From Prevotella sp. (lineage in GTDB: Bacteria > Bacteroidota > Bacteroidia > Bacteroidales > Bacteroidaceae): a DNA stretch of 34,507 bases. A program made the translations under genes and the position numbers. This document shows, one piece after another, positions 2,092-32,518 of this stretch. The stretch's first letter is position 1. Each line of letters opens with the position of its first letter. The DNA lies in contig JAFSRY010000013.1 of the NCBI GenBank assembly GCA_017445845.1, forward strand, positions 1 to 34,507, read 5' to 3'. A model generated the notes under the pieces. It made no database searches, was not told the origin of the DNA, and saw only the letters and a list, made by a program, of their open reading frames with translations.

Positions 2092-3900
2092 CTAATTCCT
2101 CATTACTTTCTTTCCGTTTGCAATGGTGATGCCACGATAGTCGTCGCCGACACGTTGTCCCTGGAGGTTGTACATCCTCGAGTGGCCGTTCGAGGTGGTG
2201 GGACTCCCGATGCCAGAGCGTTCGTTGAAGTGAAGGTCGTAGACGAGCTGGCATTCGGTGGTGTTGTTGGTCTTGAGCCGCTGATAGTCCCATCCTTTGA
2301 GCGGTTGCCCGCAGATGGTGACGTTGTCGAAGTAGATGTCGTGGATATACTTTGTGGGTGTTCCCTGCTGCTGCCATCCGTAGAGCCAGATGTCGTTGCT
2401 GACGGGCGTTCCCGTGTCGCGTTTGACGGTGATGTTCGAGAAGTACACGTCGCTGATGTCGCCTTCTGTCGACTGGTCACCCACGATGCTGCCATACCAG
2501 AAGCTGTCCTCAAAGCCCATGGCGAAGAGTCGTGTGCAGCTGTTGATGCGGATGTTGTCGTAGTGGATGTTTCGGAAGAAGGTGCCGTGGAGGGCACAGA
2601 TGTTGATGGCAGAGCGGTCTGCCATACCTTCGGTGATACTCTTCTCGTCGTATGCGAAGAGGATGTCACTGTCTTCGAAGCGGATGTTCTCGAAAACCGA
2701 TGCTCGTGTCTCTGCTCCGATGCCGAAGGCGTTGTTGGTGTCTGTCCACAGCTGCATCCGCCTGAAGGTGAGGTTGCGCTGTGCGGGGCTGTTGGCAGGC
2801 AGCGTGCCCTCGGCAGCGAGCCCCTTGATGGCGACGCAGTCGTCGTAGGCTCTGACGAAGCAGTTGTCGAAGGTGATGCCGTCGCACCCCGTCAGGTCTA
2901 TGCCGTCGGAACTGCCTCCCTGCATGGCGATGATTTTCACGTTGCTCACGGTCAGGTTCTTGCAGTAGGTGTAGGTGGTCTGCCATCCGCGAGCCTTGAA
3001 GCGATGGAAGATGACGCCCTCGATGCTGCCGCCGTCGGATGACTGGCACGACAGTTGCCGCTGGCTGTCGTGATTGGTTACGACAATGCCATGGCCGTAG
3101 ATGCGGCTGCCGTTGCCAGCGAAGCCCAAGGAACCGTATACCACGGCTCCGCCCGACACATAGATGCTGCGTCCGCCCACGGCTGCCACCTGTCCGTTGG
3201 CGGTGAGCTCGTTGAGGTCGTAGTAGCCGGGACCGAAGTAGTAGGTCTTCGTGTCGCGGTCGTAATGATAGCCCTCGGGATCGGCGACGGCAGGCGGTGT
3301 GATGATGTCGTTGCAGAACAGGTGCAGTACATTGTCTTTTCGATAGTCATCGCCTGTGACGAGTGTGATGTTCTGGTTTGAGCGCGTCACGCGGAAGCGC
3401 AGAATCTTATCCGTCAGTTTTTCCACGTCGGTGATGGCCGCATTCTCGGGCAACAGTTCAAAGTCGCCCAACTCCTTTCGGCAGGAGATGACGACTTCCA
3501 CCGGCTTCTCGTCGTCGAAGTCGAAATAACCGAAGCTGACACGCCCGCCCCATGGGTTGTTGCAACAGTATAGCCCTGCATAGCTTTGTCCTGCGACCAT
3601 GACGTTGAACTGTGGTGCTCCGTCGAGCAGGGTGTATTCGTCGGGTCGCGCATAGGTCATCACACTGCCGTCGGCGGCAGTCCATGTTTCACCCTTGCTC
3701 GCTGCCGATGTCCAGGCAGCATAGCCTTCGGCAGGCATGATTACAGGCTGGCGTATGGCAAGAGCCACCTGACAGTAGGGACATGCTATTGCCAGCACGG
3801 CCCACAAACAGAAACACCGACGGACATTGGACAGGACGGTTTCCCGGCGCCATGTCCACTGCCCATGCGATGCTGAAGATTTGGATTTACGGTTGTCCAT
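2092..3900 (-). CDS. Secreted right-handed beta-helix glycoside hydrolase-like protein (GH28/GH49-like)
   Basis: A 602-residue protein. A basic N-terminus and a hydrophobic segment (about residues 28-48) form a signal peptide. A beta-sandwich-like region follows, then from about residue 250 a parallel beta-helix with repeated 'NLTVSNVKI' and 'GITFDNCF' rungs. Candidate acidic catalytic residues are in SSDGID (about residue 330) and AYDD (about 352), arranged as in GH28 polygalacturonases and GH49 dextranases. It ends with the tail 'MYNLQGQRV' and 'GITIANGKKVMRN'. It is paralogous to the protein at 9518-11458. The -7 box at 3936-3929 puts transcription start about 22 nt before this ATG, supporting the start chosen. 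The substrate cannot be read from sequence; GH110-like activity is an alternative. Confidence 0.75.
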   Translation of the reverse strand: MDNRKSKSSASHGQWTWRRETVLSNVRRCFCLWAVLAIACPYCQVALAIRQPVIMPAEGYAAWTSAASKGETWTAADGSVMTYARPDEYTLLDGAPQFNVMVAGQSYAGLYCCNNPWGGRVSFGYFDFDDEKPVEVVISCRKELGDFELLPENAAITDVEKLTDKILRFRVTRSNQNITLVTGDDYRKDNVLHLFCNDIITPPAVADPEGYHYDRDTKTYYFGPGYYDLNELTANGQVAAVGGRSIYVSGGAVVYGSLGFAGNGSRIYGHGIVVTNHDSQRQLSCQSSDGGSIEGVIFHRFKARGWQTTYTYCKNLTVSNVKIIAMQGGSSDGIDLTGCDGITFDNCFVRAYDDCVAIKGLAAEGTLPANSPAQRNLTFRRMQLWTDTNNAFGIGAETRASVFENIRFEDSDILFAYDEKSITEGMADRSAINICALHGTFFRNIHYDNIRINSCTRLFAMGFEDSFWYGSIVGDQSTEGDISDVYFSNITVKRDTGTPVSNDIWLYGWQQQGTPTKYIHDIYFDNVTICGQPLKGWDYQRLKTNNTTECQLVYDLHFNERSGIGSPTTSNGHSRMYNLQGQRVGDDYRGITIANGKKVMRN

Positions 3901-3928: not shown

Positions 3929-3991
3929 CAAAATTAGCCTATTATTCATTTTCCCGTTTAAAAAAATCGCTTGAAAAATATAAAAAATGTC
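3929..3991 (-). promoter_or_regulatory. Promoter with upstream activator-type element, copy 2
   Basis: On the minus strand a -7 box TAATTTTG lies at 3936-3929. Exactly 30 bp upstream of it is a 25-bp element (3967-3991) matching 23 of 25 bases of the one before the gene at 4627-7284. No good TTTG -33 box is present, which fits a promoter needing an activator. The obvious candidate is the hybrid two-component regulator encoded at 11575-14349; that assignment is inference. Confidence 0.65.
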
Positions 3992-4058
3992 CAGTTCCGG
4001 TGCATTTGCAGCGATTTCTTATAGCCGATAGACATTATTGACAGACACGGCAGGCTTT

Positions 4059-4234
4059 GGAACGGTGATTACCAAGCACTGATAATCCGATGATCAGTGT
4101 GAGATAATCCGATGATCAGTGTGAGATAATAGGCTTATCAGTGTGAGATAATCCGATGATCAGTGTGAGATAATAGGCTTATCAGTGTGAGATAATAGGC
4201 TTATCAGTGTGAGTTAATACTCTGCATCGGCTGA
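4059..4234. repeat. Iteron-like array of eight 22-bp tandem units (array 1)
   Basis: Eight contiguous 22-bp units. The six central ones (4081-4212) come in two forms, ordered A-A-B-A-B-B: both start GATAAT and end ATCAGTGTGA; form B has GATAA-N5-TTATC dyad symmetry. The first unit (4059-4080) ends in ACCAAGCACT and resembles the units of the second array at 20939-21114, and the last (4213-4234) is degenerate. There are no spacers, so it is not a CRISPR. It lies between the terminator of one carbohydrate unit and the promoter of the next. Confidence 0.9.
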
Positions 4235-4265
4235 CTTCTCTGTGACGATGCTGTCAAACGGCAGC

Positions 4266-4309
4266 AAAAATTAAAAGACCCGCCAGAAACGATGTCCTGA
4301 CGGGTCTTT
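4266..4309 (-). terminator. Rho-independent terminator of the GLUG/peptide unit
   Basis: Stem arms at 4274-4282 (AAAGACCCG) and 4301-4309 (CGGGTCTTT) with three further inner pairs. On the minus strand the stem is followed by TTTTAATTTTTG. It lies 27 bp past the stop of the peptide gene at 4336-4512, so it ends the transcript that begins before 7284. Confidence 0.85.
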
Positions 4310-4335
4310 CTCAATTCTATTATTGGTTGGATGGA

Positions 4336-4512
4336 CTATTCGTCCCAGACGTAGCCTTTGGAGAACGACAGATCGTCGCTGCCTTGGTTTTCGAATGTGA
4401 TGTCGCCGAGACCGTTGGTGGGCGTGGTGTCACTGATGGAACCAATCAGCATGGGGTCTTCCGTGACAACCACCTGCATCTTACTGATGGGCGTTTGATA
4501 TGTCTTTTTCAT
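4336..4512 (-). CDS. 58-residue hypothetical peptide
   Basis: Starting at MKKTYQTPISKM gives 58 residues with an acidic C-terminus ending YVWDE. An upstream in-frame ATG at 4614 would add 34 residues, but those are translated repeat DNA (4521-4550), so I reject it. The pattern MKK-x-Y-x-x-P near the start, then ML-x-GS around residues 26-29 and an acidic glycine-rich end, resembles short Bacteroidales proteins I recall as common and uncharacterised. There is no obvious signal peptide or membrane segment. It lies 114 bp after the GLUG protein gene, before a terminator, so it should be co-transcribed with it. Function unknown. Confidence 0.65.
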   Translation of the reverse strand: MKKTYQTPISKMQVVVTEDPMLIGSISDTTPTNGLGDITFENQGSDDLSFSKGYVWDE

Positions 4513-4520
4513 CTTTTGAA

Positions 4521-4634
4521 ACCTCCCCCTGCCCCTCTCAAGGAGGGGAGTGCCTGCCGGTTTGTGGGAGGTTGGCAGGATGTTGTTTTTGTTACTTAAT
4601 TTGTTAGTTGACAAGTAAACAGGTTATTACTCAT
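4521..4634. repeat. Diverged copies of two dispersed repeat families
   Basis: 4521-4550 is a degenerate version of the palindrome at 78-175 (CCCCTCTCAAGGAGGGG core). 4607-4634 is a 28-bp near match to the GTTGACAAGTAAAC repeat present twice at 11472-11556. Together they make up much of the spacer between the GLUG protein gene and the 58-residue peptide gene, and would be transcribed in the message of both. Confidence 0.75.
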
Positions 4635-7284
4635 GTCTCATTACTTTCTTACCGTTTACTATGGTGATGCCACGGTAGTTGTCGGCTACGCGCTGACCCT
4701 GCACGTTGTAGACGGGAGCGAGTTTTTCACTATTTACTTTTAATCCTTCACTTTCAATGCCAGTCTCGTCGCCGTCGAGGATAGAGAACTTGGCACTGCC
4801 TCCCTGTGCCGACTCGTTGACGAAGTATGCGCGGAAGGCATGAGCCGTTGCTTTCTTTCCTGCAGCGCTGTGGATGGCCTTTGTGCCGAGGATGACATAG
4901 ATGTCTTGGTCGGTGAGGTCGAGGTCAGCGGTGTAGTTGCCCTTGAAGTCATAGCTGATGTCGCCGTCGGCATGGCTGACGGTCTGTGCCTCGTCGGCTG
5001 TCAGGTTGACGTTGGCAAAGGCAAAGGTGGCAGGAGCTTCGGCTGGCATCTTCACCATGACGGGTGTGGCTGCTGCGATGTCGGCGGCGTCGGCGAAGGA
5101 GAGCGTGGCAAGGCCGTCAGCAGCGGTGACGGCGGTGAAGGCTTTCACGTCGGTGGCGCCGAGAACAGTCTTGAGTGCGGCGGCTGTGGTGGCGAAGGGC
5201 AGCACGAGGCTGTTCCATCCCTCTTGGAATGTGTAGCGGAGGGTGGCGTTCACGGCGGTCTTTTCCGTGGGCTCGTAGGTGGTGTTTTCATCGAGCGTGA
5301 CACTCTCGGTGTTGGTGTAGGCTCCATTGAAGGCATAGACGGCTCCGGCCTCTCCGCAGGGTACCGGATGTGCTGTCTGGGTGCCGCCGTTGTCGATGTC
5401 CTGCATCCATGGTGTGCCGCCCTCGGCTTTACCGTTGAGGAGGTAGCAGAGTTCGCCGGATGCGGTCTGCTCATCGGTTACGCGGGTGGCGTCGTCGGCC
5501 ATGGTGTTGAAGCAGCCTGTTACGACGGAACCCATGTTGTCGTAGAGCAGGGCTCCCGTTTCGCCGGCGCTGTTGTCGCTGACATGGCCGGTGTTGTAGC
5601 AGCCTGACATCTGTACATTGCCGAAGGCTCCTGCGCAGATGGCTGCCGTACGGAGTGTTCCGGTTATGTTGCCGGTGTTGTAGCAGTTGCTGATGACGAT
5701 GGTGGGTCGCATGGCGTCGCCGTCACGGCCGTCGGCGCTGCCGATGATGCCGCCGGCGCGGAGGTTCCAGTACCAGCCGTCGGCTCCGGTGCAGGCCACG
5801 GTGCCCTCGTTGCCGCAGTTCTCGATGGTGACGGTGCCGACTCCCTTGGCGGCTCCTGCGATGCCGCCGACGTAGTTGCGTCCGCGGATGGAGCAGGTGG
5901 CGTCGAGGATGACGTTCTTCACGACGGCTCCTGGTGCAAGCATTGAGAACAGTCCGAGTCCCCAGTCGCTCTCACTGGTGCGGTCGAGATGGAGGTTGAG
6001 GATGCGGTGGCCCTGACCGTCGAAGGTGCCGGCATAGAAAGTGCTGGTGTAGCCGATGCCGTAGCCCAGCGGTGTGAAGTTGTCGATGGGCTGCAGGTCG
6101 ATGTCGGCCGTGAGCACGGCGTTAACGGCGGCGTTGCCCTTGACGACAGTGCCGAAGCTGACGAGTTGTCCGCAGTTGCCGATGTGGTAGATGCCGTCGG
6201 TAAGGGTCGGCGCCTCGTAGGTGGTGCAGACGGAGCAGATGCCGTTGACGAAGTTATGCGGGTCGCGCTTTCCTTCTCCGCCTGTGTTGTTGTAGCTGAT
6301 GCTTCCTTTGGCTGTTCCGTCGCAGTTGAGGTCGCCGACGGCATAGACGATGCTGTGGGTGGCATCGAGCACGGGGTACGGGTCGACGTCACCGGTGAGG
6401 TTCTGTCGGAAGGCGACGGTGGATTCGCTGATGCTGCCGTTGACGAGGAAGCAGAGTTCGCCGGATGCTATTTGCTGGGCTGTGACGGCAGTGACGCCTT
6501 CGCCGGCCATGGTGCTGTAGCAGTTGGTTATGGTGGAGCCTCCGGGTTCATAGATGAACTGTGCGACTTCGGTGCTGCCGTTCATGATATGTCCGGTGTT
6601 GTAGCAGTTGGTGGCGCTGACCTTGCCGTTGGCAAAGGCGCAGATGGCTGCCACGCGCTCGGTGGCGGCAAGAATGTCGCCGGTGTTGTAGCAGTTGCTG
6701 ATGACGACGCGGTCGGGATAGTCGTTGTTCTGATAGCTGCAGCAGCCTACAAAGGCGGCGACGCGCTGGTTCCAGTACCAGGTGCCGGTAGATTTGCTCT
6801 CTACGGTGCCTTCGTTGCCGCAGTTTTCGATGATGACGTCGCCGCCGTTGCCTGTTACCGCTGTGCCGGTGATGGCTCCGACGTTCTCACCGCCAGTGAT
6901 GTGGCAGGTGGCGTCGATGATGACGTTCTTCACTACGGCTCCGCCGCCGAGGCGTGAGAACAGTCCGATACCCCAATGCCAGGAGTCGGTCCATGTCATG
7001 GTGAGGTTGAGGATGCGGTGGCCCTGACCGTCGAAGGTGCCGACGTATGCCTTCTGGTAGCCGATGGGCGCGAAGTTGTCGATGGTAGACATGTCGATGT
7101 CGGCTGTGAGCACGGCGTTGGCTGTCAGGTTGCCGTCGGTGACGATGCCGCGGAAGGCGTCGAGGTCGGCAGCCGTCGCAATCTGATAGACTCCGCCTGC
7201 ATCTTGCTCAATGGCAAGGGCGGCGGTGCTTCCTGTCCAGGCGAGGACGAGGGAGAGCAACAAGTAGATGGTTTTCTTTTTCAT
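4627..7284 (-). CDS. Secreted protein with two GLUG-like blocks
   Basis: An 885-residue protein with a signal peptide (cleavage after about residue 24, T-A-A-L-A). Two homologous blocks (about residues 25-330 and 355-640) each begin with a 'YQIATAADL' or 'YHIGNCGQL' segment and contain GTFDGQGHRILNL and NCYNTG motifs, typical of GLUG beta-solenoids. The two blocks are also similar in DNA (about 5998-6030 and 7012-7042), so this is an internal duplication. A beta domain with GWNSLVLPF follows at about 688, then the C-terminal tail 'VYNVQGQRV', 'GITIVNGKKVMRHE'. Expressed from the promoter at 7353-7415. Probably a cell-surface binding or adhesion protein; no catalytic motif was seen. Confidence 0.8.
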   Translation of the reverse strand: MKKKTIYLLLSLVLAWTGSTAALAIEQDAGGVYQIATAADLDAFRGIVTDGNLTANAVLTADIDMSTIDNFAPIGYQKAYVGTFDGQGHRILNLTMTWTDSWHWGIGLFSRLGGGAVVKNVIIDATCHITGGENVGAITGTAVTGNGGDVIIENCGNEGTVESKSTGTWYWNQRVAAFVGCCSYQNNDYPDRVVISNCYNTGDILAATERVAAICAFANGKVSATNCYNTGHIMNGSTEVAQFIYEPGGSTITNCYSTMAGEGVTAVTAQQIASGELCFLVNGSISESTVAFRQNLTGDVDPYPVLDATHSIVYAVGDLNCDGTAKGSISYNNTGGEGKRDPHNFVNGICSVCTTYEAPTLTDGIYHIGNCGQLVSFGTVVKGNAAVNAVLTADIDLQPIDNFTPLGYGIGYTSTFYAGTFDGQGHRILNLHLDRTSESDWGLGLFSMLAPGAVVKNVILDATCSIRGRNYVGGIAGAAKGVGTVTIENCGNEGTVACTGADGWYWNLRAGGIIGSADGRDGDAMRPTIVISNCYNTGNITGTLRTAAICAGAFGNVQMSGCYNTGHVSDNSAGETGALLYDNMGSVVTGCFNTMADDATRVTDEQTASGELCYLLNGKAEGGTPWMQDIDNGGTQTAHPVPCGEAGAVYAFNGAYTNTESVTLDENTTYEPTEKTAVNATLRYTFQEGWNSLVLPFATTAAALKTVLGATDVKAFTAVTAADGLATLSFADAADIAAATPVMVKMPAEAPATFAFANVNLTADEAQTVSHADGDISYDFKGNYTADLDLTDQDIYVILGTKAIHSAAGKKATAHAFRAYFVNESAQGGSAKFSILDGDETGIESEGLKVNSEKLAPVYNVQGQRVADNYRGITIVNGKKVMRHE

Positions 7285-7352
7285 ACGTTTACTTTTTTAA
7301 ATAATTAGGTTTTAGGTTATATGGGTTCCTTTTTGTTGTTAAGAATGTGTTG

Positions 7353-7415
7353 CAAAATTAGCTTTTCTCTTTCTGCGGGTATTTAATTTTTCGCTTGAAA
7401 ACTATCAAAAATGTC
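7353..7415 (-). promoter_or_regulatory. Promoter with upstream activator-type element, copy 1
   Basis: The minus-strand -7 box TAATTTTG is at 7360-7353, giving a leader of about 60 nt for the GLUG protein at 4627-7284. A 25-bp element at 7391-7415 (minus strand core GACATTTTTGATAGT, then TTTTCAAGCGA) lies 30 bp upstream. The element and spacing recur at 3929-3991. No -33 TTTG is evident. Confidence 0.65.
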
Positions 7416-7526: not shown

Positions 7527-9521
7527 TTAGTAGTCTGCATTGCGGTAGGTCAGTCCGGGCCAGTCGTCGGTGCGGAATGGGTGGGCTGGCAGTCCTTGCC
7601 GGTTGTAGAGGTGGCCTGAGGGATTGTCGGCCCAGTTGTAGCGTGCGGCAACGGGGAGGGTTACTTGGGGTGATGTGAGAACGACGTCGGTGCCGTCGAT
7701 ATGTGCGTCGGCCCAGTGGTACTGATGGTCGGGTCCTGCGAGGGCGAAGGCATGGCTTCCGGTGGTGAGGTAGAGGCTGTCGGCATGGGTGAAGTGAAGG
7801 CGTAGAGCCTGTCCTTCTACGGTATGGCCGGTGTAACGCGGGCCGCTGTATTCGATGTTCTCGCCATAGGTGAGGGCCCGTGCGAGCAGGGCGAGGCGAT
7901 GGCCAGCCGTCTGTTTGTCCTTGGGATGGATGTCGTCAGCGGTTCCGGTGTCGATGAGACATGCGGTGGCACACTGTGGAAGGTGGCAGGCTGTGAGCTG
8001 CTGTGCTTCGCGCAGCTCTGCCCATTTCGACTCGCCGGGTTGCGCTTTCTCCTCCTGGTAGTTGGCGAGCTGGGCTATATAGAAGGGCAGCGTTGCTCCC
8101 CATGCGCCCCGCCAGTCGTCGATGAGGCATGGCAGCAGTTCGCGGTATTGGTAGGCGCGGTTGGCATTGTCTTCGCCTTGATACCAGAGGAAGCCTCTCA
8201 AGGCGTAGGGGGCGAGTGGATGGATCATGGCGTTGTAGAGCATACAGACGTTTTTTGCATCGGTGAGGGGGTTGCGTGGCTGTACGGGCAGCTGATGGAG
8301 GGTTTGTGCGCGGCATACCCTCCAGGATGTGGTGAGGGGTTGCCCCTCCAGTCGTATCGTATCGGGGAGTCCTGCCCATCCTCCGATGTCGAGGTCGCGA
8401 ACGGTGATGACGGCTCGGCCGGCCGTCACGAGCTGTGCCGGTACTTTGTAGATGCGGTGTTCGGCATAGCCGTCGGTATGTCCGATGACGGTTCCGTTCC
8501 AGAAGGTGAGGTCGTTGTCGTCGATGCGTCCGAGGTCGAGGGTGAGTTCTCTTCTGGCCCACTTAGCAGGGATGTCGACGACGGTGCGATACCACAGGAT
8601 GCCGTCGAAGCTGTCGTAGTCAGGTCCGGTGGTATATCCGGGTACGGGTGCAACGTCCCATGAGCTGTCATCGTAGGTAGGGAGTGCATAGCGAAGCGCC
8701 CCTTGGCTCCATGCCAGGGTGTCGGCCTGCAGCAAGCGGTTCCATTCGGTGAGTTCCCGTTCGTAGTATGTCCGTCGCTGCCCGGCATCGACGGGCATCC
8801 TCGTGATGCGCCCGACGGCTGCCGTGAAGTCGGGAAGCCGCGAGAGGGCGTCGGCGCTGACCCATGCTTCTGCCGGTGTGCCGCTCCATGTGGTCATGAT
8901 AAGTCCGACGGGCACATGTTGCGACTGTAGGATGTCGCGTCCGAAGAAGTAGGCGGCGGCCGAAAAGCGTGCTACGGTCTGTGGTGTGCAGGCCTGCCAT
9001 CCTCCGTCGCGGACGTGGACGTCGCGCTGCGGCCGGGGACTCATCGTATAGTCTATATGGAGGAAGCGCAGCTGCGGATAGTGGGCTTCGGCGCATTCGC
9101 GCTCATAGTCTTTCACCTTGCCCCATCCGGCGACGGGCATGTCCATGTTCGACTGGCCGGAACAGAGCCATACCTCGCCGATGAGGACATCGTGGAGGGT
9201 GAGCCGCTGCGTATTGGTATGGTGATCACGGGTATCGGCCTTTTCTTCGATGGTGAGTTCGTAGGGTCCGCCGGCGGAGGGCGTGAGAACGCGGAGCATC
9301 CAACGGCCTTGGACATCGGCGACGGCAGAATAGGTCTGGCCGTCCCACGACGTGGTGACGCTGACGGTGGTGCCGGGCGAGGCTTCACCCCACAGGGGGG
9401 CATGGCTGCGCTGCTGCAGCACCATGCCGTCGGCAAAGAGGGGTTGCATCTGGAGGGTGGCAAAAAGAGATGATGTCAGACTGGACAGCAGGAGTAATAG
9501 CGACAGGCGTAGTTTTCTCAT
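7527..9521 (-). CDS. SASA-type carbohydrate O-acetylesterase (sialate O-acetylesterase family)
   Basis: A 664-residue secreted protein with an N-terminal signal peptide (about residues 1-21). The nucleophile motif is CSGQSNMDMP (Ser near residue 123), and D-x-H in 'DDIHPKDK' (about 530) supplies the rest of a SGNH-type triad. A jelly-roll-like insertion between them (about 290-390, with 'YRTVVDIPAKWA' and 'DLGRIDDND') is usual in the larger Bacteroidetes members. The family removes acetyl groups from sialic acids or plant polysaccharides; beside beta-helix hydrolases, deacetylation of a glycan substrate is likely. Its ATG overlaps the stop of 9518-11458 (ATGA), suggesting translational coupling. 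It lacks the C-terminal tail of its neighbours. Confidence 0.85.
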   Translation of the reverse strand: MRKLRLSLLLLLSSLTSSLFATLQMQPLFADGMVLQQRSHAPLWGEASPGTTVSVTTSWDGQTYSAVADVQGRWMLRVLTPSAGGPYELTIEEKADTRDHHTNTQRLTLHDVLIGEVWLCSGQSNMDMPVAGWGKVKDYERECAEAHYPQLRFLHIDYTMSPRPQRDVHVRDGGWQACTPQTVARFSAAAYFFGRDILQSQHVPVGLIMTTWSGTPAEAWVSADALSRLPDFTAAVGRITRMPVDAGQRRTYYERELTEWNRLLQADTLAWSQGALRYALPTYDDSSWDVAPVPGYTTGPDYDSFDGILWYRTVVDIPAKWARRELTLDLGRIDDNDLTFWNGTVIGHTDGYAEHRIYKVPAQLVTAGRAVITVRDLDIGGWAGLPDTIRLEGQPLTTSWRVCRAQTLHQLPVQPRNPLTDAKNVCMLYNAMIHPLAPYALRGFLWYQGEDNANRAYQYRELLPCLIDDWRGAWGATLPFYIAQLANYQEEKAQPGESKWAELREAQQLTACHLPQCATACLIDTGTADDIHPKDKQTAGHRLALLARALTYGENIEYSGPRYTGHTVEGQALRLHFTHADSLYLTTGSHAFALAGPDHQYHWADAHIDGTDVVLTSPQVTLPVAARYNWADNPSGHLYNRQGLPAHPFRTDDWPGLTYRNADY

Positions 9522-11458
9522 TTCTTTATCTTGATTGGTCGGACAATGGTGGGGTCGTTGATTTTGAGCAGCGGATGGCTGAGACGGTCGATGGGACGTC
9601 CTTCGACGAGTACATGGTCGAACGTGATATGTTCGATGAGTTTGGTAGGTGTACCTTCACGCTGCCAGCCGTTGAGGAGCACCTCGTTGGCGATGGGGCT
9701 GTCGGCATGGTTGAGCGACCGGATGTTGCGGAAGGTTACATGTTTGATGCCGCCTGCCGTAGACTGGTCGCCGAGGATGGTGCCGAACCAGAAGGAGGGC
9801 TTGAAGCCCATGGCGATGAGCCGCTCGCAGTGGTAGACGCGGATGTCGTCGTAGAGCAGATTGTTGAAGTAGGTGCCGTGGAGACAACAGATGCCGAGGG
9901 CTGCCCGCTCGTCGAGCTGGGTGTGATACTCGGGGTCGTCGTAGGAGAAGAGAATGTCGGTGTCGGTGAGGCTGATGTGGCTGAACTGCCGCGCCCGTGT
10001 CTCGGCACCTATAGTGAAGGCGTTGTTGCAGTCGTTCCACAGCTGCAGGTGGCTGAAGCGGAGGTCGGTCACTTCGGGCGACTGCGAGGGTGGCGTGCTG
10101 CCCATACCCTTGATGGCAATGGCATCGTCGCAGGCCCGGATGAAACAGCTGTCGACACGGCAGTGGCTTGAGGATACGAAGTTCAGTCCGTCGGTGGAGG
10201 CATAGCGTGTAGAGATAATCTTCAGATGGCGAATGTCTATAAGTTCGCTACCATGGACGATGGTCTGCCAACCCTGCGGGCGGTGCCCGTGGAGGGTGAT
10301 GCCGCTGATGGAACAATGGCGGCTGCCATCGACGTTGAGGAGTGTGCCGCCGGCATTGACTACCATGCCGCTGCCGCTGATGACGGCTCCGTCGGCATGG
10401 CCGATGCGGATGGTGCCATCGACAACGGCGCCTGGCGCAATATAGACTTGCTGGCTGCCGCTGACGGTGAGGGGACCACCGAAGCGTTGCTGCAGCGAGT
10501 GGTAGCCGGCTGGGAAGTAGTAGTCGACATCGGCGGGGGCTGCTTCGGGTTGGAAGGCATTGCAGAAGAGGTGGAGCACATGGCCCGTGCGGGCATCGCC
10601 GCCGGCAATGAGCGTCAGCTGGCAGTTGGCCTCATGCGTGGTGATGCGAAGGGCGTTAGGGGCCGTCTGTCTGACGCGGTAGGACGGCGACTGTGGCAGC
10701 AGTTCATAGTTGGTGAGACTGTCCTTGCAGATGATGTCGATGGTGACGTCAGTTCCCTGCTGCATCTCAAAAGACCCGAAGTCGACGGTGCCGCCCCAGT
10801 AGTTACGGTCGTTGTAGAGAGCCACGCAGGAACCGCCCACGAGCACGTTGAAGGGTCGCTCGATGGGCTCAAGATAGGGGTATCCGTCGGGAATGCGGTG
10901 GGTGGCAAAGGTATGTCGGACGTCGAGAGAGTCCTGTCCCATGCATCGTTGTTCGTCGAACGGCAGAAAATGGCGTCGGGCGGCGGCATCACGAGCCTGC
11001 AGCCGGGCTATCGTGGCCTTGGCGGCATGTCGGTCGCTTTCCATACAGATGCGACCGAGGGCGTTGTGGCGCGCCAGCTCGTCGTAAGCCATCTGTGCCG
11101 TCAGCGCATCAAGGCTGTCGCTGCCCTGGTTGCCGATGAAGAGCTCCAATCTGTCTCGCCCCTCCTGGGGGTTCTGCCTTTCGCCAGACGTGGGGACCAG
11201 AGGGGAGTTGCCGGGGTGGAGCCGCCGGGTGAGAAAGTCGTTGAGGGTTGACATGAACGAGCCGTCGGACATCAGCACATGACTGGCGACATCGGCGGTA
11301 GCCTGACCGATGATGACACCGCCAAAGACGGGCGTTGGACATACCATCAACTGGTGGTCGGCAGTGAGCTGAATGGCAACTCTCTGTCCTTCCTCTTGCG
11401 CCATCATTGAATGGGTGAAGAGAAGGAAGCATGTGATGAATAATAGATTGTTTTTCAT
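9518..11458 (-). CDS. Secreted beta-helix glycoside hydrolase-like protein (GH28/GH49-like), paralogue
   Basis: I place the start at 11458 (MKNNLLFITC), giving 646 residues with a signal peptide ending near M-M-A-Q. The longer frame from 11557 adds 33 residues that are translated repeat DNA. An N-terminal region (to about residue 330) precedes a beta-helix. Candidate catalytic acids are STDGLN (about 422) and ACDD (about 444), with FTIGAETR further on. The same order of motifs occurs in 2092-3900, including 'CLHGTYFNN', 'GDQSTAGG' and 'GWQREGTPTK', so the two are paralogues. This one lacks the shared secretion-type tail. No promoter was found in 11459-11574, so it may be read from the regulator's transcript. 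Substrate unknown. Confidence 0.75.
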   Translation of the reverse strand: MKNNLLFITCFLLFTHSMMAQEEGQRVAIQLTADHQLMVCPTPVFGGVIIGQATADVASHVLMSDGSFMSTLNDFLTRRLHPGNSPLVPTSGERQNPQEGRDRLELFIGNQGSDSLDALTAQMAYDELARHNALGRICMESDRHAAKATIARLQARDAAARRHFLPFDEQRCMGQDSLDVRHTFATHRIPDGYPYLEPIERPFNVLVGGSCVALYNDRNYWGGTVDFGSFEMQQGTDVTIDIICKDSLTNYELLPQSPSYRVRQTAPNALRITTHEANCQLTLIAGGDARTGHVLHLFCNAFQPEAAPADVDYYFPAGYHSLQQRFGGPLTVSGSQQVYIAPGAVVDGTIRIGHADGAVISGSGMVVNAGGTLLNVDGSRHCSISGITLHGHRPQGWQTIVHGSELIDIRHLKIISTRYASTDGLNFVSSSHCRVDSCFIRACDDAIAIKGMGSTPPSQSPEVTDLRFSHLQLWNDCNNAFTIGAETRARQFSHISLTDTDILFSYDDPEYHTQLDERAALGICCLHGTYFNNLLYDDIRVYHCERLIAMGFKPSFWFGTILGDQSTAGGIKHVTFRNIRSLNHADSPIANEVLLNGWQREGTPTKLIEHITFDHVLVEGRPIDRLSHPLLKINDPTIVRPIKIKK

Positions 11459-11471
11459 TATTGTTTTTAGC

Positions 11472-11556
11472 TGACAAGTTGACGAGTTGACAAGTAAACA
11501 AGTTATTATTTTTGTTGACAAGTTGACGAGTTGACAAGTAAACAAGTTATTTCTCA
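11472..11556. repeat. 36-bp direct repeat pair of GTTGACAAG phrases
   Basis: A 36-base stretch starting TGACAAGTTGACGAG is present at 11472-11507 and again, identical, at 11516-11551. Each copy is built of degenerate 9-10-base words (TTGACAAG, TTGACGAG, TAAACAAG). A third partial copy lies at 4607-4634. It fills most of the spacer between the regulator gene and the beta-helix hydrolase gene. Confidence 0.9.
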
Positions 11557-11574
11557 TTTCTCATGACTCGTCAA

Positions 11575-14349
11575 CTAAAAACCCCTTTTCCCTTTTCCCC
11601 TCACGTCTCCCGGGCTGATGTGATATTCGTCTTTGAAGCACTTCGAGAAGTAGGAGGGTGCGGTAAATCCTACTTTATAGGTAATCTCCGATATAGAGAG
11701 TTCGGTGGTTTCGAGCAGTTCCCGACCACGGCGCAGACGGGCTGACCGCAGGTGCTCTACAGGGGCACGGCCGGTGAGGGCTTTTATCTTGGCATAGAGT
11801 TGGGCACGGCTGAGGTTCATGGCTTCGCTGAGGTCTTCGACGCTGAGGTCGGAGTCGGTAAGATGTTCTTCTATATAGTCGAGGAAGCGACGGACAAACT
11901 CCGACTCGCGCGGTTTCACGGCTTCGAGGGTGGGAGCCTTGCTGTCCGCCGACCAGAGGTTCCGCAGCATCTGCCGGTTGGCCAGAAGATTTTCGATGCG
12001 CGACCGCAGGACTTGTGCCGTGAAGGGTTTTGTCAGATAACCGTCGGCACCGTTGTCATAGCCCTCTACATAGTGTTCGTCGAGTGAGCGGGCTGTGAGC
12101 ATCAGCACGGGGATGTGGCTGGTCGCAGTGGTCGTCTTGAGCAGACGGCAGCAGGTAAGACCGTCCATGACAGGCATCATCACGTCGCACACGATGAGGT
12201 CGGGCACCAGTCGCTGCGCCAGGTCGAAGCCTTCCTGGCCGTTGGCAGCCTGGCTGATGGTGTAACGCTCGCCCAAGACATGGCTGACATACGCTCGCAT
12301 CTCGGCATTGTCGTCGATGATGAGGAGGGAGGGCCGTTCGGACAGACTGGCATCGTCGGTTACCTCGGCGACCTTCTCGGGCTGGACAGTAGGCTGCAAC
12401 TCGGTTTGTCTTAGCGGCAGGCTGATGGTGAAGAGGGTGCCGATGCCTATGGCGGAGTCGGCGGTGATGGTGCCGCCGTGGAGTTCGACGAACGACTTTG
12501 CCAGTGACAAGCCGATACCCGTTCCGCCTTGCGCCGTGGGTGACTGATAGAAGGTGTCAAAGATGCGTGGCAGGTCTTGGGGACTGATGCCGGTGCCTGA
12601 GTCGCGCACCTTCAGACAGCAAGTCCCGGCAGCGTCATCGGACGTCAGCGTCACATCGATGCTGCCTTGTTCGGGCGTGTATTTAAAGGCGTTGCTCAGA
12701 AGGTTGACGACAATGCTGGTGAGTTTCTTCCTGTCGGCTTCTATCCACAAGGGAAGCTTGTCGTCGCAGTTTAGGCGCAGTGAGATATGCTTTTCGCGAG
12801 CCGTCGGTTGGAAGTTTCCTGTCCAGTCGGTCAGGGCCTTGGTAAGGTCAAAGCGGTCTACCTTCAGCGTAGCCATGCCGTTCTGTACTTTTCGGAAATC
12901 AAGTATCTCGCTGACCAGATCGAGCAGGACATGGATGTTTTTGTCGGCTACACTCAACAGCTGCTGTCGCCTCTCACCACTCAGGGTCTGGTCGTTGAGC
13001 AATGCTTCAACTGGCCCGGCCACCAGTGTCAGCGGCGTACGGATTTCGTGGCTGATGTTGGTGAAGAAGTTCATCTTTGTCTGCGCGTCTTCTTCAATCT
13101 GCTGGTTCAGCTGTTGCAACTTCTCATTGCTCTTGAGCAATAGCGAGGCCTGTTCCTCTTTCTTTACATACTCGTCTTCGATGTGCCGTTTCAGACGGCG
13201 GTTGCGCTGAAGCGTCTTATAGAGGGTCACCGAGAAGAATGTCAGCGCTGCGGCGAGTATGGCCATGAGGATTGTGATGACACGCTGCTGGCGATGCTGG
13301 TTGCTGACGGCATTGAGCATCCCGCGCATGGTCCCGATCTGGTTGTCCAGGTGGTCGATTTCGACATGCTGCTGAAGTATGGTCTCGAGGTTCTCACGGT
13401 CAACGAGTCCGGTGGGCAGGATTTCTGTCCGTTCATAGGGCTCTCCATGAAGAATCTGCAGGGCCGTCTCAAGCACCTTGTCACCGCGGGTGGGATAGAC
13501 GAAGCTGGCGGTAAGGTTGCCTTTCTTCACGCTTTCGATGCCGGAAGGGTTCTTCGACAAGGCATCGATGCCGACGAGTTTGATAGGGGGCGAATGGCGA
13601 TTGGCATAACGGCTGATGGTGTGGTTGACCATACCGTCGGTATGGAAGAAAATGAGGTCTACGTCGTTGTGGCGGGACAGTACTTCGACGGTCTTCTGCA
13701 ATGCCATCGTGTCGTTCCAATTGGCGTATTCGCTGGCGACGAGTTGAATGTCCGGATATTGGCGGAGGGCCTCGCTGAAGCCTTGATGGCGTTCCTCGGT
13801 GGAGTAGTTGCCCTTCCGTCCTTGAATTTCTACGACACGGCCGTGCCCGTCCAGTTCATGACCCACATAACGGCCGATGGTCTCGCCAATGTCATAGTTG
13901 TCGGCACCGATATAGGCGGTGTATTTATCGGTGAGCATGGCGTTGTCGACTAAAACGACAGGGACACCGCTGTCGTAAGCCTGCTCGATGGCTGCCACGA
14001 CGCGCTGGTCTTCGATGGGGGAAACGATGAGCAGGCTGATGCCCGAACGCACGAAACGGTTGATTTGTTCGGCCTGCTTCTCGGCGCTGTTGTCGGCAGA
14101 ATAGATTTGCAGGTCGACATTGTCATATTGATAGGAGGCATACTCCAGTTCGTTGGCAAGTTTTTCACGCCAGGAGAACTGATGATAAAGGGAGACTCCG
14201 ATGCGGTATTTAGGCTTCGCTCCACAAGACCATAGCATGAGGGCCGTCAGTCCCAACAGCCATAGAAATCCCGACCAATGAGTCAGGAACTGTTGACGCT
14301 CCGGACCGCTTAGGTGTTGAAGAACGGAAGTAGCTTTTCTGGTTTCCAT
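11575..14349 (-). CDS. Hybrid two-component system regulator with sugar-binding-like sensor
   Basis: 924 residues from METRKATSV; the frame extends 37 codons upstream but that part looks untranslated. Order: a membrane anchor near residues 25-42 ending W-S-C, a LacI/ribose-binding-type periplasmic domain (about 50-323, YRIGVSLYHQ to LPTGLVD), a transmembrane helix (about 353-373), a coiled linker, a histidine kinase with H-box NISHEIRTPL (His near 433), N-box NLLSNAFKY and G-boxes DSGTGIS and GTGIGLS, a receiver with CDVMMPVMDG (Asp near 720) and TKPF, and an AraC-type HTH (about 826-919). Such proteins sense a released sugar and switch on the local utilisation genes; the sensor type matches the fructose-sensing BT1754 class. 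The ligand here is unknown. Confidence 0.95.
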   Translation of the reverse strand: METRKATSVLQHLSGPERQQFLTHWSGFLWLLGLTALMLWSCGAKPKYRIGVSLYHQFSWREKLANELEYASYQYDNVDLQIYSADNSAEKQAEQINRFVRSGISLLIVSPIEDQRVVAAIEQAYDSGVPVVLVDNAMLTDKYTAYIGADNYDIGETIGRYVGHELDGHGRVVEIQGRKGNYSTEERHQGFSEALRQYPDIQLVASEYANWNDTMALQKTVEVLSRHNDVDLIFFHTDGMVNHTISRYANRHSPPIKLVGIDALSKNPSGIESVKKGNLTASFVYPTRGDKVLETALQILHGEPYERTEILPTGLVDRENLETILQQHVEIDHLDNQIGTMRGMLNAVSNQHRQQRVITILMAILAAALTFFSVTLYKTLQRNRRLKRHIEDEYVKKEEQASLLLKSNEKLQQLNQQIEEDAQTKMNFFTNISHEIRTPLTLVAGPVEALLNDQTLSGERRQQLLSVADKNIHVLLDLVSEILDFRKVQNGMATLKVDRFDLTKALTDWTGNFQPTAREKHISLRLNCDDKLPLWIEADRKKLTSIVVNLLSNAFKYTPEQGSIDVTLTSDDAAGTCCLKVRDSGTGISPQDLPRIFDTFYQSPTAQGGTGIGLSLAKSFVELHGGTITADSAIGIGTLFTISLPLRQTELQPTVQPEKVAEVTDDASLSERPSLLIIDDNAEMRAYVSHVLGERYTISQAANGQEGFDLAQRLVPDLIVCDVMMPVMDGLTCCRLLKTTTATSHIPVLMLTARSLDEHYVEGYDNGADGYLTKPFTAQVLRSRIENLLANRQMLRNLWSADSKAPTLEAVKPRESEFVRRFLDYIEEHLTDSDLSVEDLSEAMNLSRAQLYAKIKALTGRAPVEHLRSARLRRGRELLETTELSISEITYKVGFTAPSYFSKCFKDEYHISPGDVRGKGKRGF

Positions 14350-14474
14350 ATTTGTTTTTCTTTGCTGGGCCTTGTGATGCTCAGAATATAGTTTCAGGCG
14401 CTTTTTTACGTTTGCAAAGAAAATAAAAAAATATGAAAGGTAAAAGCTTTTTACTCTCAAAAAACTTCCTTCAA

Positions 14475-14508
14475 GACATTTTTGATAGTAAATAATTGTT
14501 TTTTGATA
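14475..14508 (+). promoter_or_regulatory. Possible regulator half-sites upstream of the hybrid regulator gene
   Basis: GACATTTTTGATAGT (14475-14489) is identical over 15 bases to the core of the upstream element at 7391-7415, in inverted orientation relative to the gene it precedes. TTTTTGATA occurs at 14479-14487 and again at 14500-14508, a 21-bp step that matches the half-site spacing common for AraC-type dimers. It lies about 130 bp upstream of the regulator's ATG and may be an autoregulatory site. Confidence 0.4.
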
Positions 14509-14520
14509 ATGGGGCGGGAA

Positions 14521-17423: not shown

Positions 17424-18602
17424 TTAGTATTTGTGGGTGGCCTTCCACCAGGCAGTATGCTCTTTTCCGTCGGCTTTGTCGTTGACGGACGGGTCGCTGA
17501 TGGTGATGCCCGAGAAGCGGTCGATGGCTACGGTGTGGGGATGGTCGATGGTGCTGAAGATGCTGGGCGTGTTGACCTTGAAGGGCACAAGCCGTTGCAG
17601 CTGTTGAGTCAGCGGGCTTAATAGTTCAGAATCGCCGAAGCAGAGGAAGTCGATGTAGTGTCCGCAGTCGAAGAAGATGGGTGGTGTGTATCCGTCGAGT
17701 GCCTGCAGCCATTCCCTGTCGTCTTCGTTGAAGGTGTGTGTGGCGTTGGCTTCTGCCATGAGTTGGGCGAAGGCCTCCACCTCGCGGCAGTCGATGGCGG
17801 CTAATGTCCCGTAGGGATAGGAGTAATCCGAGTAGAACTTGTGATAGGCGTTGCATACTTCTTCGTAGTTGGGTGTGGGCGAGAGGTACTGCCAGATGTC
17901 TTCATAGGGCATCCCGCGTGCCATGATTTCGCTGGTCGACGCGATGAGATGGTCGGCGACGCGATGCAGGTCGTAGGCTACCTCGACGTTTGCCATGTAG
18001 CAGTCGTCGAAGAGGATGAAGTCGAGGTGGGTCTGGCTTTCGCTGATGGCATCGGCGAGGGTTGTTATTTCAGCTCTGAACCCTTTGTCGCCACCGAAGT
18101 ATTTTCGTCTGGCCAGGTTTGTCTTTGCTGAGGCATCATCGTCAACGGGCAGCCATCCCATGCCGTGGCAACCAATCATCATGGCATACCGCAGCGAGGG
18201 TGCGTAGCCTTTGGCGTCGTTGATAAACCCCCTGATGGTTTCTTTCTTCGTGAAGTCAACGTTGGAATATGTGGCAAGGGTGTCGCGAACGGTGGTGCCC
18301 TTGTCGAGTTTTATCTCGAAGAGTACGGCCTCATAGGGTTTGTTGGCCATGCAGACGAGCAGTCGTGCATTGGCCATGGTCTGCCGTTTGGTGATGGCGT
18401 TCTCAATCTCGCGGATGTTGTTCTGGAAGTCGGAGTATAGTCCTGCACTGCCCTTCGCGTTGCCCGACCAGGGGAAGTAGTAAAGGATGGTCTGGTCAGT
18501 AGGCTCCGGCTCCGGCTCGTGGTGGTGATGGCAGGAGAGTAGGAAAAAAGAAAGAATGAAAAAATGAAGGAATGAAAGGTTTCTGTAGTTCAGAAAATCC
18601 AT
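17424..18602 (-). CDS. Clostripain-like (C11) cysteine protease lipoprotein
   Basis: Start at MDFLNYRNLSF (18602) gives 392 residues and a classic lipoprotein signal ending L-L-S-C at about residue 23. A start at 18674 overlaps the previous stop (TAATG) and could be coupled, but would put 24 residues before the signal peptide. The His-containing GCHGMGW (about residue 146) and Cys-containing FDDCYMANVE (about 201) are the catalytic dyad of peptidase family C11, which cleaves after Arg or Lys. Probably surface- or periplasm-anchored. A His4 run and E-P repeats follow the lipid-attached Cys, likely a spacer. Last gene of the 20568-to-17424 group. Confidence 0.88.
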   Translation of the reverse strand: MDFLNYRNLSFLHFFILSFFLLSCHHHHEPEPEPTDQTILYYFPWSGNAKGSAGLYSDFQNNIREIENAITKRQTMANARLLVCMANKPYEAVLFEIKLDKGTTVRDTLATYSNVDFTKKETIRGFINDAKGYAPSLRYAMMIGCHGMGWLPVDDDASAKTNLARRKYFGGDKGFRAEITTLADAISESQTHLDFILFDDCYMANVEVAYDLHRVADHLIASTSEIMARGMPYEDIWQYLSPTPNYEEVCNAYHKFYSDYSYPYGTLAAIDCREVEAFAQLMAEANATHTFNEDDREWLQALDGYTPPIFFDCGHYIDFLCFGDSELLSPLTQQLQRLVPFKVNTPSIFSTIDHPHTVAIDRFSGITISDPSVNDKADGKEHTAWWKATHKY

Positions 18603-18673
18603 TTTTCCCTTTGAACAGTCATTCGTGGGTATCCTTATGTTCAATCCTTTTTCCATTTTTTCATTCTTTCCCA

Positions 18674-19369
18674 TTATCTCATTTTCTTAATCACGGGCAG
18701 CACAAGGCTCTCCATCACCTCGTAGCCTTTCTTGTTGGGGTGCACCTGTTCGGGTGTATAGGCCGTGTTCATGCGTGTTCCGTCTTCGCTGAGCATCGCT
18801 GAGAAATAATCGACGAAGGGAATCTTGTGGCTGTCGGCATAGGCCTTGACACGGGCGTTGAGGCTGCGTATCTTCTCCATCGAGTCGGTGATTTCGAGTC
18901 GCCACGGGAAGTTTCCTGCTGGCAGTGTCGAGGTGAGGATGACCTTGATTTTGTTTGCTTTGGCCAGTTCGCACATCGAGACGACATTGCCGAAAGTCTG
19001 GTCTTCGTCGTATTTACCGGTGTTCTCTGCAATGTCGTTGGTGCCGTAGTTGATGACGACGATTTTCGGTTGCAGGTCGATGACATCCTGACGGAACCGC
19101 AGCAGGAACTGGTAGGACGTCTGTCCGCTGATACCGCGGCCGATGAAGCCGTTCTCCTTGAAGAACTCCGGGTGTTGTTCAACCCAGCCCCATGTGATGC
19201 TGTTGCCTAAGAATACGACGCGCTTCTCGCCTTTGGCGGGTTTGCCGAGTTCAGCATTGGCCTGTGCGTATCCCTCGAAGCAGGCGAAGTCGTGGCGCTG
19301 TGCCTGAATGTTGTTTGCTGCGAGCAGCATCATCGCTGCGAGCATGATGTTCTTGATAGTTCTTTTCAT
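18674..19369 (-). CDS. Secreted SGNH/GDSL-type hydrolase
   Basis: 231 residues with a signal peptide (cleavage near A-N-N-I-Q-A-Q, residue 24). The four SGNH blocks are visible: FLGNSITWG (Ser57), GISGQTS (Gly), YGTNDI (Asn) and VHPNKKGY (His210). The position three before the His, usually Asp, is Glu207. Such enzymes are acyl or acetyl esterases acting on lipids or glycans; a periplasmic platelet-activating-factor-acetylhydrolase-like role is often annotated without proof. The stop overlaps a possible start of the protease gene. Confidence 0.88.
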   Translation of the reverse strand: MKRTIKNIMLAAMMLLAANNIQAQRHDFACFEGYAQANAELGKPAKGEKRVVFLGNSITWGWVEQHPEFFKENGFIGRGISGQTSYQFLLRFRQDVIDLQPKIVVINYGTNDIAENTGKYDEDQTFGNVVSMCELAKANKIKVILTSTLPAGNFPWRLEITDSMEKIRSLNARVKAYADSHKIPFVDYFSAMLSEDGTRMNTAYTPEQVHPNKKGYEVMESLVLPVIKKMR

Positions 19370-20938: not shown

Positions 20939-21114
20939 GGTAATGGTCTTAACAAGCACTGATAATGGTGTTAACAAGCACTGGTAATGGTGTTAACAAG
21001 CACTGATAATGGTGTTAACAAGCACTGATAATGGTGTTAACAAGCACTGATAATCGTGTTATCAAGCACTGATAACAGGCTTATCTCATTGTGATAATAC
21101 TGTCATCTCTTTGA
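20939..21114. repeat. Iteron-like array of eight 22-bp tandem units (array 2)
   Basis: Eight contiguous 22-bp units. Units 1-6 start GATAAT or GGTAAT and end TTAACAAGCACT or TTATCAAGCACT; unit 7 (21071-21092, GATAACAGGCTTATC core) matches form B of the array at 4059-4234, and unit 8 (21093-21114) is degenerate. Both arrays are 176 bp and end in a unit with TAATACT near its start. It lies downstream of the terminator of the 1286-residue protein gene. Confidence 0.9.
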
Positions 21115-32290: not shown

Positions 32291-32518
32291 GAAAATGCAG
32301 CTAAAAAGTGTGCAGGGAGAAACAGGGGTGAAAAACTGACTTGAGATATGTCAAGGATTTTAGAGTGTTAATTCTGTATTTTCTCTGTCTTTTGTCTGTA
32401 TTCCCAGAAATCCATCTCTTCTCGTAACTTTTTGTAATACAATCAAAAGCAGGAAAATATTATATGTATTTATCTGTATTTTCGTGTGTATCGATAAGGT
32501 AGAGTGGAGAAAAGGTCG

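Follow-up and report, generated by a model that had tools for sequence, protein, structure and literature searches.

A 25-bp promoter pair in a Prevotella gene cluster is very probably part of a 21-bp direct-repeat operator of the adjacent hybrid two-component regulator

In a 34,507-nucleotide stretch of Prevotella sp. DNA (contig JAFSRY010000013.1 of assembly GCA_017445845.1; hereafter the window), a 25-bp element occurs twice, as TCGCTTGAAAAATATAAAAAATGTC at 3967-3991 and as TCGCTTGAAAACTATCAAAAATGTC at 7391-7415, with 23 of 25 positions identical. The pair very probably belongs to the operator of the adjacent regulator, a hybrid two-component system (HTCS) protein with an AraC-type DNA-binding domain, which, judging from sequence, would bind there and activate the genes behind. 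Each copy is followed by the -7 box TAATTTTG on the minus strand (CAAAATTA as numbered here), at 3929-3936 and at 7353-7360, and in both promoters the gap between the box and the end of the 25-mer is exactly 30 bp. No TTTG occurs within 40 bp upstream of either box. The sigma-ABfr consensus has TAnnTTTG at -7 and TTTG at about -33 (PMC7366714; citations here and below refer to parts of each paper). The lack of a -33 TTTG here fits dependence on an activator. A first-pass annotation of this DNA had pointed out the pair, its exact distance to the -7 box and the missing -33 TTTG, all of which our measurements reproduced. It had further noted that the genes behind the two copies encode quite different proteins, so that the promoter is conserved apart from the coding sequence. 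By eye the two promoters differ from each other except in the element and the extended -7 box.

The element is confined to this place in its genome. Allowing up to three mismatches at the 23 shared positions, it is found twice in the window against a mean of 0.00 in 100 dinucleotide-preserving shuffles, and a scan of the assembly from which the window comes (G000; 2.46 Mb in 103 contigs, 75.5% complete) returned just these two places, not many unrelated promoters. Shuffles and scan together rule out a chance origin. Among 150 genomes of the genus, drawn from a larger group and including this one, only three match at the same tolerance, one of them (G083) by a single three-mismatch match, and a widely used promoter element was therefore rejected. 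Read backwards, as a control of the same composition, the element matches two of the 150 genomes, G096 once and G146 five times, so lone three-mismatch matches are at background level. The five matches in G146 are perhaps a repeat of that genome's own.

The sequence of the 25-mer is real, but the conserved unit runs about 10 bp further towards the promoter. The 25-mer covers the distal half-site and the spacer but just four bases of the proximal half-site; the full unit is 36 bp long and repeats directly with a period of 21 bp, GACATTTTTkATAgttttCAA followed by GCGATTTTTTaa. Operator 1 (3956-3991, minus strand; half-site 1 at 3978-3991, half-site 2 at 3957-3970) reads GACATTTTTTATATTTTTCAA and then GCGATTTTTTTAAAC on the gene strand, ends 19 bp from its -7 box, and lies upstream of a 602-aa GH28-family gene. 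Operator 2 (7380-7415, minus strand; half-site 1 at 7402-7415, half-site 2 at 7381-7394) reads GACATTTTTGATAGTTTTCAA and then GCGAAAAATTAAATA, upstream of an 885-aa gene. The first-pass annotation was right about both sites but had missed a third (operator 3), a partly degenerate copy that lies on the plus strand at 14475-14510, upstream of the HTCS gene. Over nine sites from the window and its relatives, the first 14 bp resemble the following sequence best at an offset of 21 (mean 8.1 of 14 identities), followed by an offset of 23 (6.1), with the remaining offsets from 14 to 30 giving 2.4-5.4. Taken together the nine sites are a direct repeat of about 21 bp, the architecture of HTCS operators. 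The conserved bases extend beyond the T-tracts of the half-sites, to ACA, CAA and GCGA. Directly upstream of operator 1, at 4081-4220, stands an array of 6.4 copies of a 22-bp tandem repeat; a second such array, of different sequence, has 6.1 copies at 20941-21075.

The operator is found at the orthologous HTCS locus in three relatives, G140 (regulator 65% identical), Hallella seregens (52%) and G102 (50%). By eye, the two helix-turn-helix (HTH) segments of the HTCS are nearly unchanged across the window, G140 and H. seregens. The G140 locus runs HTCS, esterase, operator, 616-aa protein, 896-aa protein, 592-aa GH28 protein, 540-aa protein, SusC-like protein, SusD. Its forward operator lies 30 bp from TATATTTG, and upstream of its HTCS gene is an inverted tandem, GACATTTTT twice, 21 bp apart. 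In H. seregens, too, the site upstream of the HTCS gene is inverted. The three sites of G102 are all forward and all exactly 30 bp from TAnnTTTG; one precedes the HTCS gene, one a GH28 gene, and one a 547-aa gene with a SusC-like gene after it. Two of these, 6382 and 4523, were first seen in spacing-annotated lists, that for 4523 filtered for 29-31 bp, and both exceed a 12-bit threshold applied without regard to spacing. The GH28 operator in G102 sits within the longest open reading frame (ORF), which makes the TTG start of that reading, L038:6404, doubtful. Altogether the 30-bp spacing holds in six of six forward promoters (two in G000, one in G140, three in G102); all six carry the -7 TAnnTTTG and none has TTTG at the -33 position, the single TTTG found at G102 site 4523 lying 30 bp upstream of the -7 box.

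Profile searches restrict the operator to the HTCS locus. A profile of the operator only (R1), built from eight sites (three in G000, two in G140, three in G102), was run against these three genomes and three controls, with 150 first-look candidates scored per genome out of 488 in G000, 796 in G140 and 1280 in G102; the results that follow hold among scored candidates. In G000 the three window sites scored E = 1.5e-6 (operator 1), 2.7e-5 (operator 2) and 0.0025 (operator 3), the next candidate 3.44. G140 gave two sites, with the next candidate at 0.33, and G102 three, with the next at 0.22. All sites in the three genomes had E of 0.00251 or less and lay at the HTCS locus, while the best values in the control genomes were 0.83, 0.044 and 0.70. 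Because the eight sites built the profile, the search indicates a lack of comparable further sites among the 150 candidates scored per genome, not that the eight are real. A second profile running from the operator through the -7 box (R2) gave the six forward sites E values no higher than 1.1e-9, followed by the inverted G140 site (0.0023) and then control-level matches. An R2 match just beyond a SusC-like match, C46:19231-19295 (E = 0.0147), was not counted, the best control match reaching 0.0112. A loose whole-repeat pattern gave four matches in G000, among them 32329-32361 of the window (two mismatches) and C91:85163 (three mismatches), which are absent from the R1 list and are taken as chance. 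Fourteen intergenic stretches of the clusters in G000, G140, G102 and H. seregens gave best scores of -11.5 to 8.7 bits, except for one in H. seregens, L066 15462-15497, between genes downstream of the HTCS gene. That site, a possible further operator, scores 15.2 bits with a nine-site matrix and 19.0 with a seven-site matrix, and has no TAnnTTTG at 30 bp.

The spacing recurs across a much wider set. In more distant loci, matching the 25-mer with up to seven mismatches yields mostly noise, and for this reason a weight matrix was adopted. We used 84 related loci (1.57 Mb; 80 loci plus four of ten additional stretches), setting aside the two stretches of G140, that of G102 and three others that duplicate named loci. 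A matrix for half-site 1 only gave 2429 matches, whose distances to TAnnTTTG concentrate at 30 bp (28 matches), 9 bp (33), 31 bp (12) and 10 bp (10). The next-highest spacings reach 6, the mean of the other spacings is 2.35 with the 9-bp peak included, and in reversed sequence (2208 matches) no spacing exceeds 4. A matrix that recognizes either half-site should give two peaks 21 bp apart, and those at 30 and 9 are.

The same period emerges when no motif is supplied. Among 1140 TAnnTTTG boxes, 29-50 reach 9 of 14 identities at a separation of 21 for starts 53-61 bp upstream, against 2-16 boxes at other separations from 17 to 25, and against 4-11 of 864 boxes in reversed sequence at a separation of 21 (starts 52-58). 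The signal peaks at starts 58-60, so in relatives the half-sites probably start a few bases ahead of GACA. Merging upstream regions that were at least 80% alike left 1066 of 1162 boxes; of these, 42 boxes in 29 of the 84 loci reach 10 of 14 at a separation of 21, compared with 4-13 boxes at twelve other separations (15 to 27) and with no more than 9 boxes (mean 3.9) in any of 200 shuffles. An ORF of at least 100 aa starts no more than 200 bp downstream of 31 of the 42 repeat boxes, versus 612 of 1066 overall. Fifteen stretches around HTCS frames of 1299-1459 aa, not sorted by sensor type, give a weaker signal: 16 of 310 boxes reach 9 of 14 at a separation of 21, with 1-10 boxes at other separations and 6 of 231 in reversed sequence. 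Near L186 6923, L190 13397 and L183 5703 are 21-bp direct repeats with 12 of 14 identities at the same distance from TAnnTTTG. They have other motif letters, and they are candidate operators of the longer-frame HTCSs at those loci.

Operator 3 is inverted relative to the HTCS gene. It begins with GACATTTTTGATAGT and continues 21 bp on with TTGTTTTTTGATAAT; in full it reads GACATTTTTGATAGTAAATAA and then TTGTTTTTTGATAAT, and is partly degenerate. It scores 21.7 bits when left out of the matrix, whereas the best score of the full matrix on reversed sequence (1.71 Mb) is 18.6. A possible -7 box for the HTCS gene, TTTCTTTG (14415-14422, minus strand), has one mismatch to TAnnTTTG and lies 52 bp from the 5' edge of the operator; corresponding -7-like boxes are GATATTTG at 52 bp in H. 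seregens and TATTTTTG at 53 bp in G140. We surveyed 77 HTCS-upstream regions (L067, L090 and L114 of 80 were dropped, the HTCS lying at a contig edge) with a family matrix of 20 sites, 16 of them from related loci picked for 30-bp spacing, for which the target-side spacing is therefore circular. Matches of at least 12 bits occur in 21 regions, versus 2 of 77 reversed controls, and 17 of the 21 are inverted to the HTCS gene. Thirteen of these 17 have an HTCS-side TAnnTTTG at 49-52 bp, eight of them at 51, a spacing on which no selection was made. On the divergent side a box at 30-31 bp is found for 14 of the 17, with 8 of the 14 from loci chosen for 30 bp; for the nine inverted sites outside the matrix loci, the counts are six of nine on the target side at 30-31 bp and five of nine on the HTCS side at 49-52 bp.

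These observations incline us, by a modest margin over even odds, to a general rule: the HTCS promoters of Bacteroidales would share a rigid two-way geometry. A 21-bp repeat would stand 30 (sometimes 31) bp from the target -7 box, counting from where the 25-mer ends, and its proximal half-site would take the place of the -33 element. Its distance to the -7 box of a divergent HTCS gene would be about 51 bp, which would put both promoters under a single dimer. This geometry appears to apply to HTCSs with binding-protein-type sensors and, on weaker evidence, to others. The reading for the window itself is narrower and very probable: the HTCS would bind as a dimer, its AraC-type domains contacting one side of the helix at two directly repeated half-sites separated by two turns (21 bp). 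Of these, the proximal one covers the -33 position that the window promoters lack, as expected for activation, and from there the bound HTCS would bring RNA polymerase to TAATTTTG, much as class II activators do. The trigger would be binding of a sugar by the periplasmic sensor, perhaps a product of pectin-type glycans. The inverted operator 3 would let the HTCS tune its own expression.

Several points weigh against this account. Half-site 2 of operator 2 is the weakest of the nine, with 5 of 14 identities at an offset of 21 versus 8 of 14 at 23. Three of the nine sites, the inverted ones of the window, G140 and H. seregens HTCS genes, have no TAnnTTTG at 30 bp. The four forward matches in the HTCS-upstream survey (16.7-24.1 bits) all lack the 30-bp spacing; they weigh against the two-way rule and may be false matches or exceptions. 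The -33 TTTG motif was not found in Flavobacterium johnsoniae in what is reported in PMC7366714, so its absence is weak evidence for an activator. The two genes directly behind the HTCS gene, for a 679-aa protein and an esterase, have no operator in the junctions scanned. Orthologs of the G140 SusC and SusD proteins were not found in the 75.5%-complete G000 assembly, where the best-scoring matches are 31% and 30% identical. Finally, HTCS genes are typically constitutive at a low level (PMC6874557), which speaks against strong autoregulation.

A different HTCS, or an AraC-type protein that stands alone, might instead bind the element, which would then lie beside this HTCS gene by coincidence. 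G000 does contain eight matches to the HTCS, itself included (5 of 29 candidates scored), and predicted HTCS operators have one common architecture (PMC3878776), but the site stands upstream of the orthologous HTCS in G140, H. seregens and G102, no comparable copy appears elsewhere in G140 or G102 among scored candidates, and the two HTH segments are nearly unchanged in the window, G140 and H. seregens. We regard this explanation as improbable. Still less probable is a reading without any activator, in which the repeats are remnants of promoter duplication or A/T-rich elements of an UP-like or structural kind. T-tracts do lie within the half-sites, duplication can yield two promoters in one cluster, and the backwards element also turns up in two of the 150 genomes; against this, the bases beyond the T-tracts recur in other species, the 21-bp period and preferred spacing stand above reversed and shuffled controls, and the two promoters are unlike outside the element and extended -7 box. 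The proposal of the first-pass annotation that this is the regulator's operator is supported by its repeat architecture, its presence at orthologous HTCS loci and its want of comparable copies elsewhere in G000, G140 and G102 among scored candidates, with the correction that the operator is larger than the 25-mer.

For the inverted site upstream of the HTCS gene the choice is closer, and the idea that it is a relic of a lost divergent target operon rather than autoregulatory is a real contender, if the less likely one. A divergent TAnnTTTG at 30-31 bp accompanies 14 of the 17 inverted sites in relatives (partly by selection), the upstream neighbor in the window is a co-directional radC-like gene, the second half-site of operator 3 is degenerate, and the typically constitutive expression of HTCS genes (PMC6874557) points the same way. 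On the other side, the first 15 bases, GACATTTTTGATAGT, are identical in the window and G140, neither of which has a divergent TAnnTTTG at 30 bp; keeping the operator there without such a box favors autoregulation over a relic. An HTCS-side -7-like box is present at 52-53 bp in the window, G140 and H. seregens and at 49-52 bp for 13 of the 17 inverted sites of relatives. In G102, moreover, the HTCS operator (L038 13071-13106) points forward and stands 30 bp from TACTTTTG, the -7 box of the HTCS gene. Target genes are arranged in this way, which suggests positive autoregulation of that HTCS. An autoregulatory role for operator 3 is possible.

The regulator itself is encoded at 11575-14460 on the minus strand, with the ATG at 14349 its likely true start. 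Peripla_BP_4, HisKA, HATPase_c, Response_reg and HTH_18 all score above the Pfam cut-offs, so that sensor, kinase domains, receiver and AraC-type HTH are joined in a single chain, as in an HTCS. Residues 781-784 are SHIP, an instance of the (S/C)HIP receiver motif that occurs in most HTCSs and is tied to receiver-HTH inhibition (PMC11253607).

The other cluster genes, all on the minus strand, correspond in part to those of G140. The putative target of operator 1, the 602-aa GH28-family protein (2092-3900; Pfam GH28), is 76% identical to the 592-aa G140 protein over 528 aa. The gene for a 605-aa protein (247-2064; 70% identity to the 540-aa G140 protein) is probably on the same transcript, since the gap between the two is short, and a scan of that gap found no operator. 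The putative target of operator 2, an 885-aa protein (4627-7284; 65% identity to the 896-aa G140 protein), is probably secreted, judged by eye, and matches no Pfam or NCBIfam family. Of the two "carbohydrate units" named in the first-pass annotation, then, the label is supported for the 602-aa gene by its GH28 domain but finds no family match in the 885-aa protein. A segment near the C-terminus is common to the 605-, 602- and 885-aa proteins (51-78% identity over 27-49 aa), and it may resemble a type IX secretion sorting signal. A 664-aa SASA-type esterase (7527-9521; Pfam SASA) is 57% identical to its G140 counterpart. The 679-aa GH28-like protein (9518-11557) shows 53% identity to the 616-aa G140 protein and 39% to the 602-aa protein, with no Pfam match of its own at E = 0.001; a 44-bp unit is repeated twice at 11458-11551, near the start of its gene and directly behind the HTCS gene, and the start assigned to that gene may be wrong. 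Matches to the polygalacturonase and rhamnogalacturonidase models of NCBIfam, at about 28 bits against cut-offs of 600 and 650, were rejected as evidence of substrate. The contig ends beside the 605-aa gene (positions 1-246), whose counterpart in G140 is followed by SusC-like and SusD genes; probably the cluster was cut by the assembly, or these genes were lost. A Clostripain-family (Peptidase_C11) protein gene at 17424-18674 has no relation to the operator.

The operator pair itself is most likely of a known type. Bacteroides thetaiotaomicron has 36 HTCSs, and the operators predicted for 16 of them are direct repeats at an average distance of 21 bp, with dimers on one DNA face inferred (PMC3878776). 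As here, these are two-site repeats serving polysaccharide-utilization genes under AraC-type HTCSs; they come from another genus and are likened by architecture, not by motif letters. The closest regulator by domains is BT1754, the fructose-sensing HTCS_Fru, which also combines a binding-protein-type sensor (COG1879) with a kinase, a receiver and an AraC HTH in a single protein (PMC3878776, PMC11501099), although it governs fructan genes whereas GH28-like proteins and an esterase adjoin the HTCS here. HTCS_Rgu-1 and HTCS_Rgu-2 (BT4111/BT4124 and BT4178/BT4182; rhamnogalacturonan) share pectin-type targets and a direct-repeat operator with the present system (PMC3878776); their sensor type differs from the Peripla_BP_4 found here, since BT1754 is the only B. 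thetaiotaomicron exception to the usual COG3292 sensors (PMC3878776). What is added here to the B. thetaiotaomicron description is a measured distance to the -7 box and an inverted copy upstream of the regulator gene. In the main text of PMC3878776 the terms "transcription start" and "TTTG" are absent and the parts covered give no promoter distance, the supplementary alignments lying outside them. Titles and abstract openings likewise yielded no HTCS operator-to-promoter spacing, which may be in print elsewhere. The apparently rigid two-way geometry goes further than the description found in this literature.

HTCSs help decide which dietary glycans gut Bacteroidales use. If the geometry is fixed, the site of an HTCS and its target promoters could be found from sequence alone, with no known motif. 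A fixed geometry would also predict how HTCSs act, through a proximal half-site in the place of the -33 element, and would mean that many of these regulators share one operator with a divergent target.

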